A DNA stretch of 64,000 nt from Desulfofundulus salinus (GTDB lineage: Bacteria; Bacillota; Desulfotomaculia; Desulfotomaculales; Desulfovirgulaceae), in the NCBI RefSeq assembly GCF_003627965.1, contig NZ_RBWE01000001.1:789314-853313 (forward strand). Reading direction: 5' to 3'. Of this stretch, positions 40,213 through 46,513 are shown piece after piece. Position 1 is the first letter of the stretch; every line of letters starts with the position of its first letter. Position numbers and translations under genes: made by a program. The notes below the pieces were generated by a model that was not told the origin of the DNA, made no database searches, and saw only the letters and a program-made list of their open reading frames with translations.

Positions 40213-41412
40213 TCATATTGCTTTTAAGTTGTTGCGTTTCCCCAGATAAAGCATAATTGGTACTGCCAGTAACTGAGCTATTACCGAAAATGCCACCACA
40301 TACCCTACCGACAGGTCATACAAAATCCCCATCAGGGCGCTGCCCAGGAACCAGAACAGGCCGTAGCCGGTGTTGAACACCCCGTAGGCAGTCCCGCGCT
40401 TATCAGGAGGGATCATACCGGCAATGGCTGCCCTTAAAACCGATTCCTGTGCCCCCATACCAATACCCCAGATTACCATCCCTGTTACAACTGTTATAAA
40501 GTCCCCCAAAAACACTAAGGGTGCAAATGAGGATGAAACCAGTACAGCTATGACCAGAATATTGATTCCGGTACGGTCAAACAAGTACCCAAAAATTAAA
40601 GCCGCCAGGGCATCGGCTGCCATTGCTATGGCATAAAGTATTGGAAGCCATTCGGGCGAAATCAGAGAAGTCTTGCCCAGGTGGAAGGCAATTAAAGGAT
40701 AATCAACATAGCCGGCCGCTATGAGGGCGACGGCTGCCAGGTAAAGCCAGAATTTTGACGGTAAACCTTTCCCTTCCGCCATGATTGGAGCTGCCTCCAG
40801 CTCTCGCGGGACCGGATATAAAATCCTGGCAGCGATGAGGATTATTAGCGCTACGGAAGCCGGCACCAGTAAAACGGCAAATCCTGCTTTATAATTGCCT
40901 TTTAAAAAGTATAACACCAGGGCTACAATTAAGGGACCGGTAATGGCGCCAATTTGATCCAGAGCTTCGTGGAGGCCAAATCCCCGTCCTCTCCCAACTT
41001 CTGAAGTGGCGTAAGAAAGCATGGCATCACGGGCGGGAGTGCGGATGGCCTTCCCCACTCTTTCCGTAATCATTAAACCTGCTGCCATTGGCCAGTTGCC
41101 TGCCAGGGCCAGAAAAGGAACCGCCAGGAGGTTGAGAAAATACCCCAGTATTGTAATCGGCCAGTATCTCCCCGTACGATCGCTTATATAACCGGAAAGC
41201 AGCCGCACGCCGTAACCCAGCAGTTCTCCCAGTCCGGCAACGAAGCCAACGATTGTTCCGGTGGCCCCCAGCACTGCCAAAAAAGGACCGGTAATGCTGC
41301 GGGCACCTTCATAGGTCATGTCTGAAAAGAGGCTAACGATTCCCAGCAGGATAATGAATTTGAATGCTTTCCGGGTGGTTTGGTTCATTTTCTTTTCTCC
41401 ATGAGATTCCAT
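40213..41412 (-). CDS. MFS transporter
   Basis: A 399-residue permease with about 12 spans. The MFS loop 2-3 signature reads GYGVRLLSGYISDRTGRYWP (about residues 65-84), and a second copy, LIFGYLFDRTG, begins the C-terminal half, giving the expected two-fold repeat. ITERVGKAIRTPARDAMLSYA resembles drug/metabolite efflux MFS members. Start ATG 41412 (MESHGEKK) has GGAAAGGAGG upstream; the frame from 41457 is unlikely. It converges on the ChrB-like gene. Substrate unknown. Confidence 0.88.
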   Translation of the reverse strand: MESHGEKKMNQTTRKAFKFIILLGIVSLFSDMTYEGARSITGPFLAVLGATGTIVGFVAGLGELLGYGVRLLSGYISDRTGRYWPITILGYFLNLLAVPFLALAGNWPMAAGLMITERVGKAIRTPARDAMLSYATSEVGRGRGFGLHEALDQIGAITGPLIVALVLYFLKGNYKAGFAVLLVPASVALIILIAARILYPVPRELEAAPIMAEGKGLPSKFWLYLAAVALIAAGYVDYPLIAFHLGKTSLISPEWLPILYAIAMAADALAALIFGYLFDRTGINILVIAVLVSSSFAPLVFLGDFITVVTGMVIWGIGMGAQESVLRAAIAGMIPPDKRGTAYGVFNTGYGLFWFLGSALMGILYDLSVGYVVAFSVIAQLLAVPIMLYLGKRNNLKAI

Positions 41413-41744
41413 CAGGAGTCCTCCTTTCCTGTTTGCTCCTCCAGTAGATACAACCATCTGTAAGTTGAATGGTATCCAGGCGGGGAAAAATTAAATCAAC
41501 CACTTTACACCAAACACCCCCCTTCTTTTAACATAACAAAGAGATAGAATGAGCAAAAATATAACTGCTGTTACATTTAGATTATAACTATGATTATATC
41601 TAGATTATAACTATGGTGGTTTAATAGATCAATACTTTTTTATATTCAAACCTCTGAAAACCGGGGACAGATATGAGGTTGCCGTACCGTGCCTTTATGA
41701 AAGTGTTTAAAGGGTGTCTTTGGGAAAAGATCCGCTTGCCTTGG
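41413..41744. other. AT-rich gene-free interval upstream of the MFS gene
   Basis: About 330 bp without coding character, much richer in A+T than its surroundings. It should hold the MFS promoter on the minus strand; several TATAAT-like words occur but none has a convincing -35. Its main structure is the direct repeat at 41578-41615. Confidence 0.5.
41578..41615. repeat. 15-bp direct repeat, possible operator
   Basis: TAGATTATAACTATG occurs at 41578-41592 and again at 41601-41615, a 23-bp period (about two helical turns). On the minus strand each copy contains GTTATAAT. Tandem sites two turns apart are typical of regulator binding; the MFS gene 165 bp away is the likely target. Confidence 0.45.
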
Positions 41745-42122: not shown

Positions 42123-42548
42123 CTAGCGACTTCCCTTGCTTCTGACCGAATTCTTAAAATCCAGGGCGTGCAGCGCCTCTGCGGCGGCTATACGTACCAC
42201 CTGATTTGGGTCCTTCAGAGCTTCGGTGAGGGCTTCCCTGGCCCGGTTGCCGCCCAGCCTGCCCAGTGCTTCGACGGCTGCCAGACGGGCCGGCAGAAAC
42301 GAATTGTGTTGTAATAAAAATATTAGATGCGCCGTCGCCTGCCTATCACCGATTTCTCCCAGGGCAAGAGCCGCATCGGCCAAAATGTAAGGATCGTTGC
42401 CGTTTTCCATAAGGCAATGGAGGAGCGGCAAGACAGCCGATTTTTCTTTCAATTTTCCCAGCAGCCAGGCCGCCCTTCGCCGGATGGTAGGATCTTCATG
42501 TCTGAGGGAGGCGATCAATTTTTCCACATATCTCCCCGTCGGTTTCAT
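42123..42548 (-). CDS. HEAT-repeat protein
   Basis: A 141-residue all-helical protein made of four PBS-lyase-type HEAT repeats: RRRAAWLLGKLKEKSAVLPL, ILADAALALGEIGDRQATAH, LAAVEALGRLGGNRAREALT and VRIAAAEALHALD. Such proteins bind other proteins; no catalytic motif is present. ATG 42548 (MKPTGRY) follows GGAGGTG. It lies 136 nt downstream of the dynamin-like gene on the same strand and may share its transcript, which would make it a candidate partner. Confidence 0.85.
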   Translation of the reverse strand: MKPTGRYVEKLIASLRHEDPTIRRRAAWLLGKLKEKSAVLPLLHCLMENGNDPYILADAALALGEIGDRQATAHLIFLLQHNSFLPARLAAVEALGRLGGNRAREALTEALKDPNQVVRIAAAEALHALDFKNSVRSKGSR

Positions 42549-42684: not shown

Positions 42685-44457
42685 TCAATTATTTTCCAGT
42701 TTCAAAAGACCTTCTAGATTTTGTCTTAAAATAAAGAGCTTTTGTTTTTCCTCTTCGCATTTGGCACGGGATTTTTCTTGTTCGGCGACACTGGCTTTCT
42801 TTTCCTTAAGTGCTTTTTGCAAAGCGTTTTTAAGGCTGAAGGCAACAGCGTCCGAGCGCAACCTCAGTTCACCTGCCACCTGGCGTACTTTTTCCTTTAA
42901 ACTCTCCACCAGGTCGGCCCGCACCCTCCCACAGTTGCGGTTCAAAAGCTCCGCCAAACTGGCACGGGTTTTGGTAAGTATGTGTTTCTTAAGCAATGCC
43001 TTTGGTAAAAGAGATGCCACGGTCAATTCTTCAAAAGCGGGAATAAAGGTGGGGTGTTCGTAAAAGTGGAAGTAGAAGTAGCGATCGCCCAGAATATAGT
43101 CTTTATAAGCCGTTTTGTGTACTTCTACCTGGAAAATTTCTGCCGAGGCAGCCATCAAACGGTCTACTATATCTTCGATGCGCCGAAAAAACCGTCCGGC
43201 CACCCGGGCGAATTCCTGCTGCATTATTTCTTTTTCGCGTTCCCTTTGTTTTTCCAGCACGCCCAGGATTATCTTCTTAATGTAATCCTGGGCCAGGCCG
43301 GCAGTTTCTTTCACCGAATGCCTGGGGTAATTATCCTCAATAAAGTCCTCCAGCTGCCCGGCCAGCTGGGGAAACACACGGCGTTCAAAAGTTTCCATGT
43401 CTTCCGCCACCCGCGCGGCCAGCTTATCTACCTCCCGGTAAAGCAAGTAGATGCTGTCTTCCCGTTCCTGCTCCAGATGTGCCAGTTCTGTTTCAAAGGC
43501 GGCAATCTTCCTCTCCAGCTCTTCAAGGGAATCTTCCATACCGCGCCGCCAGAGCTCCAGGCCCAGCTCCAGTTCGTTCAGGATGCGCAGCGCCCGCGAG
43601 GCCGTGGCTGAAATAATGAGCGCTCCCTTCTGGCACCTGATCAAATCGTTTATCAGGTTCTCCAGTTCCGTCATCCGGCTTGTTTTCAGCCGTTCTGCAT
43701 CATTTTGCTCTTTTCCTTCCAGTGCCAGGCGGGCTGAAAGCGGGACCAGTAAAATGTCCTGAGTCTGAAGTTGTTCTTGCAGCATCCTGCGGGTGAAGTC
43801 TAAAGCTTCCGCCAGATCATCCGGACTGACAATGTCAATTTTGTTCAGCACAAATATGAGCTTATGCACATGATGCCGTACGTCGCGCAGGTAATCCAGT
43901 TCTCCCTTGCCCAGCGGTGCATCCACCGAAATAACAAAAAGCGCTGCGTCGGCCCGGGGCAGGTAGCCGTAAGCCGCTTCGGTATTATGGGTGTAGGCCG
44001 AACCCACCCCGGGAGTATCCACCAGAATAATCCCCTCCGCTAAAAAAGGGGCGGGATAAATGACCTCGACTTCACGTACTTTCTTAACGTTGCGGGGGTT
44101 TTCTTTTTCCGTTACATACCGCACGATATCCCCAACGGGTACTTTTTCGGCCCGCCCGTCCAGGAACACGACCGTTGCCTGTGGTTCCATGCCATAGCGT
44201 ATAAAGGTGGGGATCGCTGTAAGAGGTACGATGGCAGTGGGCAGAATGCGTGCCCCCACCAGGGCATTGATCAGGGTTGACTTGCCCCGCTTAAACTCAC
44301 CCATCACCACCAGGGTGAATGTCTCTGAGGCAACCCGGGCCAGGCTTTCGGTGAGCAGGTCCACCGCAAAGCGGTTTTCTCCGGCTTCAGCCAGAGTGAT
44401 CAATTGTTCGACTGCATTGCTGAGCAGTGTTTTTTGTTCACGAAAATGTTCCAGCAT
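42685..44457 (-). CDS. bacterial dynamin-like GTPase
   Basis: A 590-residue dynamin-family protein. After a helical start the GTPase domain has G1 GEFKRGKST (53-61), G2 within VPLTAIPT, G3 DTPGVGS and G4 NKID. Then come long helical bundles with coiled-coil character (about 300-430) and, near residue 450-490, an aromatic/hydrophobic stretch (YFYFHFYEHP, LLPKALLKKHIL) that could be the membrane paddle. Bacterial dynamins bind and remodel membranes, often under stress. ATG 44457 follows GAGGTGAT. A fluoride riboswitch lies immediately upstream (44510-44590), so expression should rise with fluoride. Confidence 0.9.
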   Translation of the reverse strand: MLEHFREQKTLLSNAVEQLITLAEAGENRFAVDLLTESLARVASETFTLVVMGEFKRGKSTLINALVGARILPTAIVPLTAIPTFIRYGMEPQATVVFLDGRAEKVPVGDIVRYVTEKENPRNVKKVREVEVIYPAPFLAEGIILVDTPGVGSAYTHNTEAAYGYLPRADAALFVISVDAPLGKGELDYLRDVRHHVHKLIFVLNKIDIVSPDDLAEALDFTRRMLQEQLQTQDILLVPLSARLALEGKEQNDAERLKTSRMTELENLINDLIRCQKGALIISATASRALRILNELELGLELWRRGMEDSLEELERKIAAFETELAHLEQEREDSIYLLYREVDKLAARVAEDMETFERRVFPQLAGQLEDFIEDNYPRHSVKETAGLAQDYIKKIILGVLEKQREREKEIMQQEFARVAGRFFRRIEDIVDRLMAASAEIFQVEVHKTAYKDYILGDRYFYFHFYEHPTFIPAFEELTVASLLPKALLKKHILTKTRASLAELLNRNCGRVRADLVESLKEKVRQVAGELRLRSDAVAFSLKNALQKALKEKKASVAEQEKSRAKCEEEKQKLFILRQNLEGLLKLENN

Positions 44458-44509
44458 CAACCGATCACCTCTTTAACTTGTTTAAGGTAGCAGTATGCCG
44501 GAAAATGAA

Positions 44510-44590
44510 CAAAAACTCCTACCATCACCTTACTGGATTTTGGTAGGAGCCATCAGCCCTTCCGGGCGTTCCAGGCGAGCTCCATCGCCG
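44510..44590 (-). promoter_or_regulatory. fluoride (crcB-type) riboswitch with terminator, upstream of the dynamin-like gene
   Basis: On the minus strand GGCGATGGAGCTCGCC (44589-44574), a GAAC linker, a small stem GCCC/GGGC, then TGATGGCTCCTACC (ending 44542) reproduce the fluoride aptamer: the GGCGA/TCGCC stem, the P3 stem and the loop TGGAGC that forms a pseudoknot with GCTCCTA. The same CTCCTACC pairs with GGTAGGAG (44523-44516) to make a terminator followed by five T. Fluoride binding should capture CTCCTAC, prevent the terminator and switch the dynamin-like gene on. No separate promoter was found; transcription may come from uspA or its 3' end. Confidence 0.9.
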
Positions 44591-44607
44591 TGGAGCAGAT
44601 TATTAGA

Positions 44608-45039
44608 TTAGTCTTCCCTGCCTTTGGCCACCAGTACATCACACGCTGCGTGACGGATTACGTAGGAAGAAACGCTGCCCATGACCAGCTTTTGAATGGC
44701 GCTCCAGCCGTGGGTTCCCACGACTATCAAATCAAAATTATTCTCCCGGGCATAGCGTACGATGGTTTCCCCCACGTGGCCGAAGATCAGATGCGTGGTC
44801 AGCTTTACGTTCTTACCGGCTGCTCTGGAAACTGCATCTCCCAGCTTCTTTTCGTAAAATTCCCGTGCCCTGGTCACCATGTCGTCTACTTCTGCCACCG
44901 TGCCCGCATAATCGGGCAGGTTCACCACGGCAACCGCGTGCAGCTCGCACCCGCAGCAACGGGCCAGCTCCATTCCTGCAGACAGGGCCTTGTTGGAGTA
45001 TGGAGAACCATCATAGGCCACCATGATCTTGCGGTACAT
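44608..45039 (-). CDS. universal stress protein, UspA family
   Basis: A 143-residue Usp domain starting MYRKIMVAYDGSPYSNKALS and ending with the ATP-binding loop GTHGWSAIQKLVMGSVSSYV (GxxG-9x-G-S form). It binds ATP and probably modulates stress tolerance. AAAGGGTGAG precedes ATG 45039. It lies between two fluoride riboswitches, downstream of the antiporter gene, and Usp genes are known members of fluoride-riboswitch regulons elsewhere. Confidence 0.9.
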   Translation of the reverse strand: MYRKIMVAYDGSPYSNKALSAGMELARCCGCELHAVAVVNLPDYAGTVAEVDDMVTRAREFYEKKLGDAVSRAAGKNVKLTTHLIFGHVGETIVRYARENNFDLIVVGTHGWSAIQKLVMGSVSSYVIRHAACDVLVAKGRED

Positions 45040-45169: not shown

Positions 45170-46342
45170 TCACTTCTCCGGTGCCGGGCGGCTTTTGGAG
45201 ATGGAAACTGCTTCCCCGGCTTCGGCCGCTTCTACCCGGGGCCGGAAAAAGGCCTGGGCGATAATGGTGGGAATTACCCCGCTGGCTATCACCACCGTGA
45301 CCAGGACGGTATATTGTTGCTGGTTGATGAAATTATGGCTCAACCCGAAAAGTGCCGAGATGGTGCCAAAGGTCAGGCCGGTGGACATGAGCAATGTGGT
45401 GTACATGCCCTCACGGGGTTTATACCTGAACAGCCAGGTTAAAGGCCATACCCCGGCAAACTTGGTGGCCATTTTCACCACCAGCAGGATCAGGATCAGC
45501 CCAAGGGAACCGGCGACGGCGGGCAGGGAAACATACAGACCTGCTTTCAGGAAGTAGAATGGGGTGAGGAAGGCAAAGGCGGCGGCCCGGATGCGCTGCA
45601 AAAGTTCTTTTTCACTTTGAAAGAAACCCGCCAGGGCCAGGCCCAGCAGGTAGGCCGGCAAAACCGCTTCGCTGTTGGCCTTGTTGGCCAGCCCGCCCAG
45701 CAACAGCAGGGCAAAAAGCACGTATTTTACTTCAATCTGGCTTACCTGGCGGCCGAACCTTTCCTGAAAGGCGGGTGTGATTTTGGGCATTAATAACAGG
45801 ACAACCGCGGTGGCCGCAATAAAGATGAGCATCCAGTAGTCATAGTTGGCAAAAAGTATACCCAGGGCCAGCACCGTACCCAGGTCGGTAATAAAACATG
45901 CGGCCAGGATGACTTGCCCCAGTTCTGTTTCATTCAGGCGCGTTTCCACCATGACTGCGTAAACTATGGCCACGGAAGTGGTGGAAAGGGCGATGCCGGC
46001 AATCTGCGCAGCCTGCAGGTTCCACCCGGCCACATAGTAGGCATAGGCAAAAGCTCCCAGGAAAGGGAATAGAAAAGATACCAAACCCAAGGAAACACTT
46101 TCCTTGAATTTGCTTTTCAGCACCGCCGGATCAACCTCGGCCCCGGCCAGAAAGGTGAGGACAATGGCGCCCAATCCCGCCAGGAAGTTAACCCAGGTAT
46201 TTACTTCCAGTCCCAGGTAATTACCACCGATTACCCCCACCATGATCTCCACCATGGCCACCGATATACCGGTACGTACGGAAATCAACCCGGCGGCCAG
46301 GGCCAGCCCAATCCAGGTGGCCGCCACAAGCCACGTGTTCAA
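45170..46342 (-). CDS. CPA2-type cation/proton antiporter
   Basis: A 390-residue transporter with 11-13 spans of the Na+/H+ (or K+/H+) exchanger superfamily. The conserved GLGAIVLTFLAGAEVDP region and STTSVAIVYAVMVE, followed by AACFITDLGTVLALGI with the ion-binding aspartate, are typical. No C-terminal TrkA-N domain is present; the protein ends after the last span and a short tail. TTG 46342 is set by GGAGG 8 nt upstream. The gene sits directly behind a fluoride riboswitch, like the NhaA2-type antiporters of other fluoride regulons, so it likely helps ion or pH balance, or fluoride efflux itself, under fluoride stress. Confidence 0.9.
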   Translation of the reverse strand: MNTWLVAATWIGLALAAGLISVRTGISVAMVEIMVGVIGGNYLGLEVNTWVNFLAGLGAIVLTFLAGAEVDPAVLKSKFKESVSLGLVSFLFPFLGAFAYAYYVAGWNLQAAQIAGIALSTTSVAIVYAVMVETRLNETELGQVILAACFITDLGTVLALGILFANYDYWMLIFIAATAVVLLLMPKITPAFQERFGRQVSQIEVKYVLFALLLLGGLANKANSEAVLPAYLLGLALAGFFQSEKELLQRIRAAAFAFLTPFYFLKAGLYVSLPAVAGSLGLILILLVVKMATKFAGVWPLTWLFRYKPREGMYTTLLMSTGLTFGTISALFGLSHNFINQQQYTVLVTVVIASGVIPTIIAQAFFRPRVEAAEAGEAVSISKSRPAPEK

Positions 46343-46375
46343 AGAAAATACCTCCTTTTCTCGCTAAGTTGCATT

Positions 46376-46460
46376 AAAAAAGCTCCTACCGGAAATCCCG
46401 CAGGATTCTGGTAGGAGCTATTAGCCTGGGAAAGGCAATTTAAGGCGAGCTCCATCGCCT
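46376..46460 (-). promoter_or_regulatory. fluoride (crcB-type) riboswitch upstream of the antiporter gene
   Basis: On the minus strand GGCGATGGAGCTCGCC (46459-46444), P3 GCCT/AGGC and TAATAGCTCCTACC (ending 46410) form the fluoride aptamer. GCTCCTACC then pairs with GGTAGGAGC (46390-46382) through a long extended stem, followed by six T, as the terminator. The aptamer core is nearly identical to the copy at 44510-44590. Confidence 0.93.
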
Positions 46461-46483
46461 GGTTGGATATATCTGACGAAAGT

Positions 46484-46513
46484 ATATTAGCATGTTTAGC
46501 CAGAAGGTGTCAA
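46484..46513 (-). promoter_or_regulatory. sigma-A promoter of the fluoride-controlled operon
   Basis: On the minus strand TTGACA (46513-46508) and TAATAT (46489-46484) are 18 nt apart. Initiation near 46477 places the aptamer about 18 nt into the transcript. Confidence 0.7.

Follow-up and report, generated by a model that had tools for sequence, protein, structure and literature searches.

What might a dynamin-like GTPase do for a cell exposed to fluoride? Fluoride riboswitches are known to control exporters, antiporters and metabolic enzymes. In Desulfofundulus salinus (GCF_003627965.1, contig NZ_RBWE01000001.1, positions 789,314–853,313 of the forward strand; this whole stretch of 64,000 nt is referred to here as the window), a preliminary description placed a complete crcB-type aptamer and a competing terminator upstream of a dynamin gene on the same strand, and it suggested that the dynamin acts in the fluoride response by remodelling or repairing membranes, perhaps together with a HEAT-repeat protein encoded downstream. 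Read along the minus strand, the locus runs from a promoter-like site through aptamer 1, an antiporter gene, a Usp gene, aptamer 2 and the dynamin gene to the gene of the HEAT protein and perhaps an MFS gene:

46484–46513, minus strand: promoter-like site TTGACA-18-TAATAT with an extended −10, upstream of aptamer 1 (consensus scan, 10/12 matches)
46405–46468, minus strand: fluoride riboswitch aptamer 1 (RF01734, 50.2 bits, E 6.3e-11)
46375–46419, minus strand: intrinsic terminator sharing the pseudoknot strand of aptamer 1 (from folding; kept in four relatives)
45170–46342, minus strand: CPA2-type cation/proton antiporter, gene 1 of the apparent operon (PF00999, E 6e-43)
44608–45039, minus strand: universal stress protein, Usp (PF00582, E 2e-36)
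44537–44598, minus strand: fluoride riboswitch aptamer 2, following the Usp gene and preceding the dynamin gene (RF01734, 50.1 bits, E 6.5e-11)
44510–44551, minus strand: intrinsic terminator that uses the pseudoknot strand of aptamer 2 as its 5′ arm (from folding, z −3.6)
42685–44457, minus strand: dynamin-like GTPase of 590 aa, of a fluoride-linked clade with the motif NPxNxK (PF00350, 98 bits, E 7.8e-28; tree; signature)
42123–42548, minus strand: HEAT-repeat partner protein of 141 aa (PF13646, HEAT_2, E 1.2e-27)
40213–41457, minus strand: MFS transporter, possible distal gene of the operon (PF07690; cluster recurs in 21 loci)

The aptamer before the dynamin gene is complete, as had been proposed: in a covariance-model search, aptamer 2 matches the entire RF01734 model (positions 1–64) and scores above the Rfam gathering score of 34. 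Its location had been given correctly, and only the 5′ end shifts, lying about 8 nt upstream of the earlier position 44590. The competing terminator is also found, as a hairpin with a stem of −18.6 kcal/mol (z −3.6 against shuffles) built on the pseudoknot strand, such that its 5′ arm, GCTCC, is also the pseudoknot partner of GGAGC in the aptamer. Fluoride ON switches are usually built in this way, with one strand serving both the terminator and the pseudoknot. Fluoride would stabilise the pseudoknot and thereby withhold the GCTCC strand from the terminator stem, and with the terminator blocked, transcription would continue into the dynamin and HEAT genes. The two protein assignments made earlier agree with the Dynamin_N and HEAT_2 matches listed above; the dynamin reading frame comprises 590 codons from an ATG at 44457, with an alternative TTG start at 44460.

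Aptamer 1, which is missing from the preliminary description, is as strong as aptamer 2 and heads the same string of genes. The two aptamers are all the Rfam features of the window, and a search of the whole genome (2.89 Mb) for fluoride aptamers returned none beyond them. Four related genomes conserve the promoter-like sequence that precedes aptamer 1, although its region as a whole is not richer in such sites than shuffles. The simplest reading of this gene order is one transcript with two serial fluoride gates, in which transcripts from the promoter before aptamer 1 would pass both gates to reach the dynamin gene. Because 666 nt lie between the MFS and HEAT genes, the MFS gene is a putative member of this operon. 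The antiporter has TIGR00932 (CPA2) as its top NCBIfam model, at a score under that model's cut-off. In Desulfovirgula, we observe the same gene set, but with aptamer 1 only.

It is conceivable that aptamer 2 is dead and that its terminator merely ends the antiporter–Usp unit. Only about 10 nt separate the Usp stop codon from the aptamer, and a consensus scan found no promoter-like site before it. Within the same genus, genome G001 retains aptamer 2 as a relic (L107 6434–6495); the sequence of this genome diverges within the terminator and encodes no dynamin at this locus, which suggests joint loss of the terminator 3′ arm and the dynamin gene. For the window, however, this explanation is hardly credible, as aptamer 2 scores as high as aptamer 1, and an aptamer paired with a terminator in this way recurs in most members whose dynamin gene comes first behind the aptamer.

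How far this arrangement extends can be seen from a survey of 113 genomes of the class, in which we find 101 fluoride riboswitches over the gathering score, 26 of them directly preceding a clade dynamin. Conversely, 37 places in these genomes encode a dynamin related to the window gene, and a riboswitch lies on the same strand within 500 nt upstream at 31 and within 2 kb at 34; of the remaining three, two start some 150 nt from the end of their contig, and the third is an additional dynamin gene located 3.4 kb behind a riboswitch. A scan of 84,980 species, which is biased for the motif YVTEKENP because that motif served as one seed (the class and phylum searches used no motif seed), yielded 27 loci, 23 with a fluoride aptamer. 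The contigs are labelled, among others, as Aquificota, Thermodesulfobacteriota, Planctomycetota, Sumerlaeota, Bacteroidota, Halanaerobium, Megamonas and a Methanomicrobiaceae archaeon, several of the distant ones being metagenome bins with possibly wrong taxon labels.

To place these proteins, we assembled 109 dynamins, drawn from the survey loci and from weaker matches across 398 genomes of the phylum. All riboswitch-linked dynamins fall into one clade of 80 in a quick tree (SH-aLRT 98), and a mixture-model tree of 58 dynamins recovers the same split (support 99/98). Within the clade, 45 members have an aptamer within 400 nt, 22 lie behind same-strand genes within 6 kb of one, 9 are cut by contig ends and 4 have none. 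The idea that a fluoride riboswitch controls the dynamin thus gains from its relatives, with 67/71 evaluable clade members being riboswitch-linked versus 0/26 dynamins outside the clade, counts in which near-identical rows are only partly removed and related genomes are non-independent events. The four unlinked members (L041, L159, L193 and L194) lack a riboswitch on their own strand, L193 having a divergent one, and a search for weak aptamers with filters off found none usable upstream on the right strand. The linkage being clade-wide, it belongs to the clade and not to the window alone. The clade also carries a signature, NPxNxK, between switch I and G3: the N, P and N are present in 100% of the 80 members and the K in 93%, versus 34%, 39%, 34% and 21%, respectively, in 29 other dynamins. 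The window dynamin groups inside this monophyletic clade, carries the signature and has a riboswitch upstream, and it would thus be one member of a distinct clade dedicated to the fluoride response across many phyla. When plasmids were searched, only distant dynamins were matched, none covering 80% of the query.

The pairing of the RNA is supported by covariation across these loci. In an alignment of 32 aptamers, 99.3% of the cells of P1 and the pseudoknot form pairs, compared with 44–58% in slid controls, and 36 cells are changed on both sides (10.7 in shuffles), such changes occurring at five pairs. A terminator-like hairpin that starts in the pseudoknot strand follows 39 of the 45 directly linked aptamers, whereas single-base shuffles give 4.6. 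The other six, from two Aquificota, one Thermodesulfobacteriota, two unclassified bacterial contigs and one archaeal contig, are likely under translational control. On the strength of these sequence comparisons, fluoride control of the clade dynamin is very well supported.

The same comparisons bear on the idea that the dynamin is a mere passenger, having inherited a neighbouring riboswitch in fluoride islands that gather genes by horizontal transfer. Many of the loci are indeed dense islands with Usp, MutS-like, enolase and antiporter genes. The riboswitch nevertheless stands directly in front of 45 members, 39 of them with a terminator, the linkage is specific to the clade while spanning many phyla, and homologues of the partner genes also own riboswitches, such that we find the passenger idea very improbable.

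Around these loci, we also observe an alpha/beta hydrolase gene between the riboswitch and the dynamin in three Bacteroidota contigs (L053, L055 and L056), and what remains of a decayed dynamin gene, about 1.7 kb downstream from a fluoride riboswitch and an antiporter (G038:C3:77656–77940). Back-to-back pairs of fluoride aptamers on opposite strands occur at L052 4579–4794, L036 9660–9922, L121 6969–7284 and L114 19488–19745, and tandem MutS domain V proteins of about 500 aa lie beside fluoride riboswitches in L036, L052, L105 and L117.

Two partner proteins, the HEAT protein and DUF6062 (PF19538), recur only with the fluoride-linked clade: a partner lies within 3.5 kb of, or is fused to, 38/89 clade dynamins versus 0/31 others. 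The earlier coupling of the HEAT protein to the dynamin is strengthened by its homologues, one of which forms the N-terminal part of a fusion with a clade dynamin (L112) and another of which has its own riboswitch (L119), while at other loci the gene is a neighbour downstream of the dynamin. Many loci have DUF6062 beside the clade dynamin, and in a Megamonas contig (L052) it is part of one fusion protein with the GTPase domain; in the class, it scores over the cut-off in 5/113 genomes, in all five inside riboswitch-bearing dynamin loci. Its sequences have conserved CxxC and CxxH pairs and are all-helical in a modest model (three sequences, mean pLDDT 73), with which a fold search returned no significant match, its weak list being no argument against a known fold. 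The name DUF6062 is absent from the open literature searched. An alpha-toroid-like helical protein adjoins clade dynamins in Aquificota-like and archaeal contigs (L038, L040, L043, L044 and L051), its gene lying directly behind the riboswitch in L043 and L044. Helical-repeat adaptors of these kinds (HEAT, DUF6062 or alpha-toroid protein) may assist the dynamin, possibly as complexes with it.

Turning to the dynamin itself, the window protein has a Dynamin_N GTPase domain with a P-loop, DTPG and NKxD, and the P-loop, G3 and G4 motifs are largely conserved in the clade. Its predicted model (mean pLDDT 81) has a helical stalk packed like that of BDLP, IniA or mitofusin, and in a Foldseek search the top match over the whole length is IniA (E 3.7e-23, Z 26), followed by BDLP (Z 21) and mitofusins. 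The window dynamin scores 25.1 bits with the LeoA/HP0731 model (NF041922), far under its curated cut-off of 325, and 85.3 bits versus a cut-off of 1600 with that of DynA (NF052648), being a single 590-aa protein versus a model of 1187 positions. A role in phage defence was considered and set aside, there being only weak LeoA/LeoBC hits.

A strongly hydrophobic paddle, present in most of the compared dynamins outside the clade, is missing from most clade members. Peak hydropathy in the C-terminal part has a median of 1.10 in the clade versus 1.74 in other dynamins (the moderately hydrophobic tip of the window protein peaks at 1.22), so that most members probably have no true paddle, which leaves membrane insertion uncertain. 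The position of the paddle is taken by a hydrophobic, basic tip around LLPKALLKK with a conserved LP, in a stretch of the model (residues 453–481) predicted at pLDDT below 50. IniA cuts membranes and binds them through its tip; it requires R488 for membrane binding, and its proposed role is to maintain an intact membrane under drug exposure (PMC6715688). Judged by the predicted model and this analogy, membrane repair by the clade dynamin is a reasonable but unproven reading, and we favour a peripheral membrane GTPase that would maintain envelope integrity.

The main rival to this membrane reading is a cytosolic GTPase whose own nucleotide pocket senses fluoride, GDP and metal fluoride mimicking the transition state and locking G-domain dimers, such that the assembled protein would work through its HEAT or DUF6062 partner and bend no membrane. 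Dynamin-type GTPases are known to be held in the transition state by aluminium fluoride, which counts for metal-fluoride-driven assembly of this kind, as do the largely conserved nucleotide-binding motifs, the lack of a strong paddle and the conservation of partner proteins and fusions. However, no fluoride-specific residue was identified, and most aligned members keep the basic, hydrophobic LP tip, which suits a membrane role. We regard cytosolic assembly as unlikely, though the most serious of the alternatives.

The genome of D. salinus (completeness 99.98) shows no gene of either known exporter family, Fluc or CLC, despite its two fluoride riboswitches, which raises the question of how fluoride is removed in such a genome. 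In the class, Fluc is found in 4/33 genomes with a clade dynamin versus 30/80 without (p 0.007), and 24 of the 33 have neither Fluc nor CLC. This anticorrelation is a lead only, because ancestry is uncorrected and some genomes are drafts. An MFS family is found in 21 fluoride-island loci, sometimes directly behind a riboswitch (L049 3340–3515, L050 2733–3009 and L114 15784–16686), and is a candidate for an unrecognised fluoride-linked transporter.

With antiporter and MFS families so often adjoining, neither Fluc nor CLC in the window's genome, and clade dynamins under-represented where Fluc is present, the dynamin could instead be a structural helper that clusters or stabilises candidate fluoride exporters of the operon (antiporter, MFS) without remodelling lipids. 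Many linked dynamins, however, are solitary genes with a riboswitch of their own and no antiporter, and the Fluc correlation tracks families. We judge such a helper role improbable.

The explanation that seems to us the best as a whole, and somewhat probable, combines the ON switch, the serial gates, the dedicated clade and a membrane mechano-GTPase with adaptors. The dynamin would most likely be a peripheral, IniA-like mechano-GTPase, induced by fluoride in vivo, that attaches to and perhaps remodels the cytoplasmic membrane and keeps the envelope intact or the exporters working as HF leaks in. If this is true, fluoride stress calls for a mechano-GTPase, a bacterial dynamin family gains a defined inducing signal, and DUF6062 and the HEAT protein can be named as parts of one module.

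Open reviews list exporters, Na+/H+ antiporters and pyrophosphatase as targets of fluoride riboswitches (PMC11139923), and the first description of the motif names mutS, K+ or Cl− transport and formate hydrogenlyase (PMC2864571). A dynamin target is not mentioned in these two papers or in PMC7266159, and the link is unreported in the open literature searched, the scope of which stops short of the founding 2012 paper and its supplement, such that an earlier listing is possible. The RNA is of a known kind, while the regulated dynamin clade and its partners appear new, and this riboswitch-linked subfamily looks like a hitherto undescribed component of microbial defence against fluoride toxicity. 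In wider terms, we consider it reasonably probable that the loci represent an undescribed branch of fluoride resistance, found in many bacterial phyla and on at least one archaeal contig, in which a riboswitch-induced dynamin-like GTPase acts with HEAT and DUF6062 adaptors, mainly in organisms without Fluc.

Compared with known systems, the RNA agrees with the fluoride (crcB) riboswitch RF01734 in its full aptamer over the gathering score, its pseudoknot and a terminator on the pseudoknot strand, and differs in that aptamer 2 precedes a dynamin gene and that the window has two serial aptamers in one apparent operon. Among proteins, mycobacterial IniA (6J72), which is induced by envelope stress and binds membranes via its tip, is the best whole-length match of the predicted model. 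It shares only about 20% identity, however, and is induced by drugs, whereas the clade has NPxNxK and other partners. We know of no riboswitch for IniA. BDLP (2J68/2J69), the Campylobacter DLP pair (5OWV), LeoABC and DynA likewise combine a Dynamin_N GTPase with a helical stalk; unlike them, the clade is usually without a strongly hydrophobic paddle, and unlike the tandem dynamin pairs, its dynamin is mostly single. Finally, DUF6062 (PF19538) and HEAT_2 are known as Pfam families, and here their members recur with fluoride riboswitches and dynamins.
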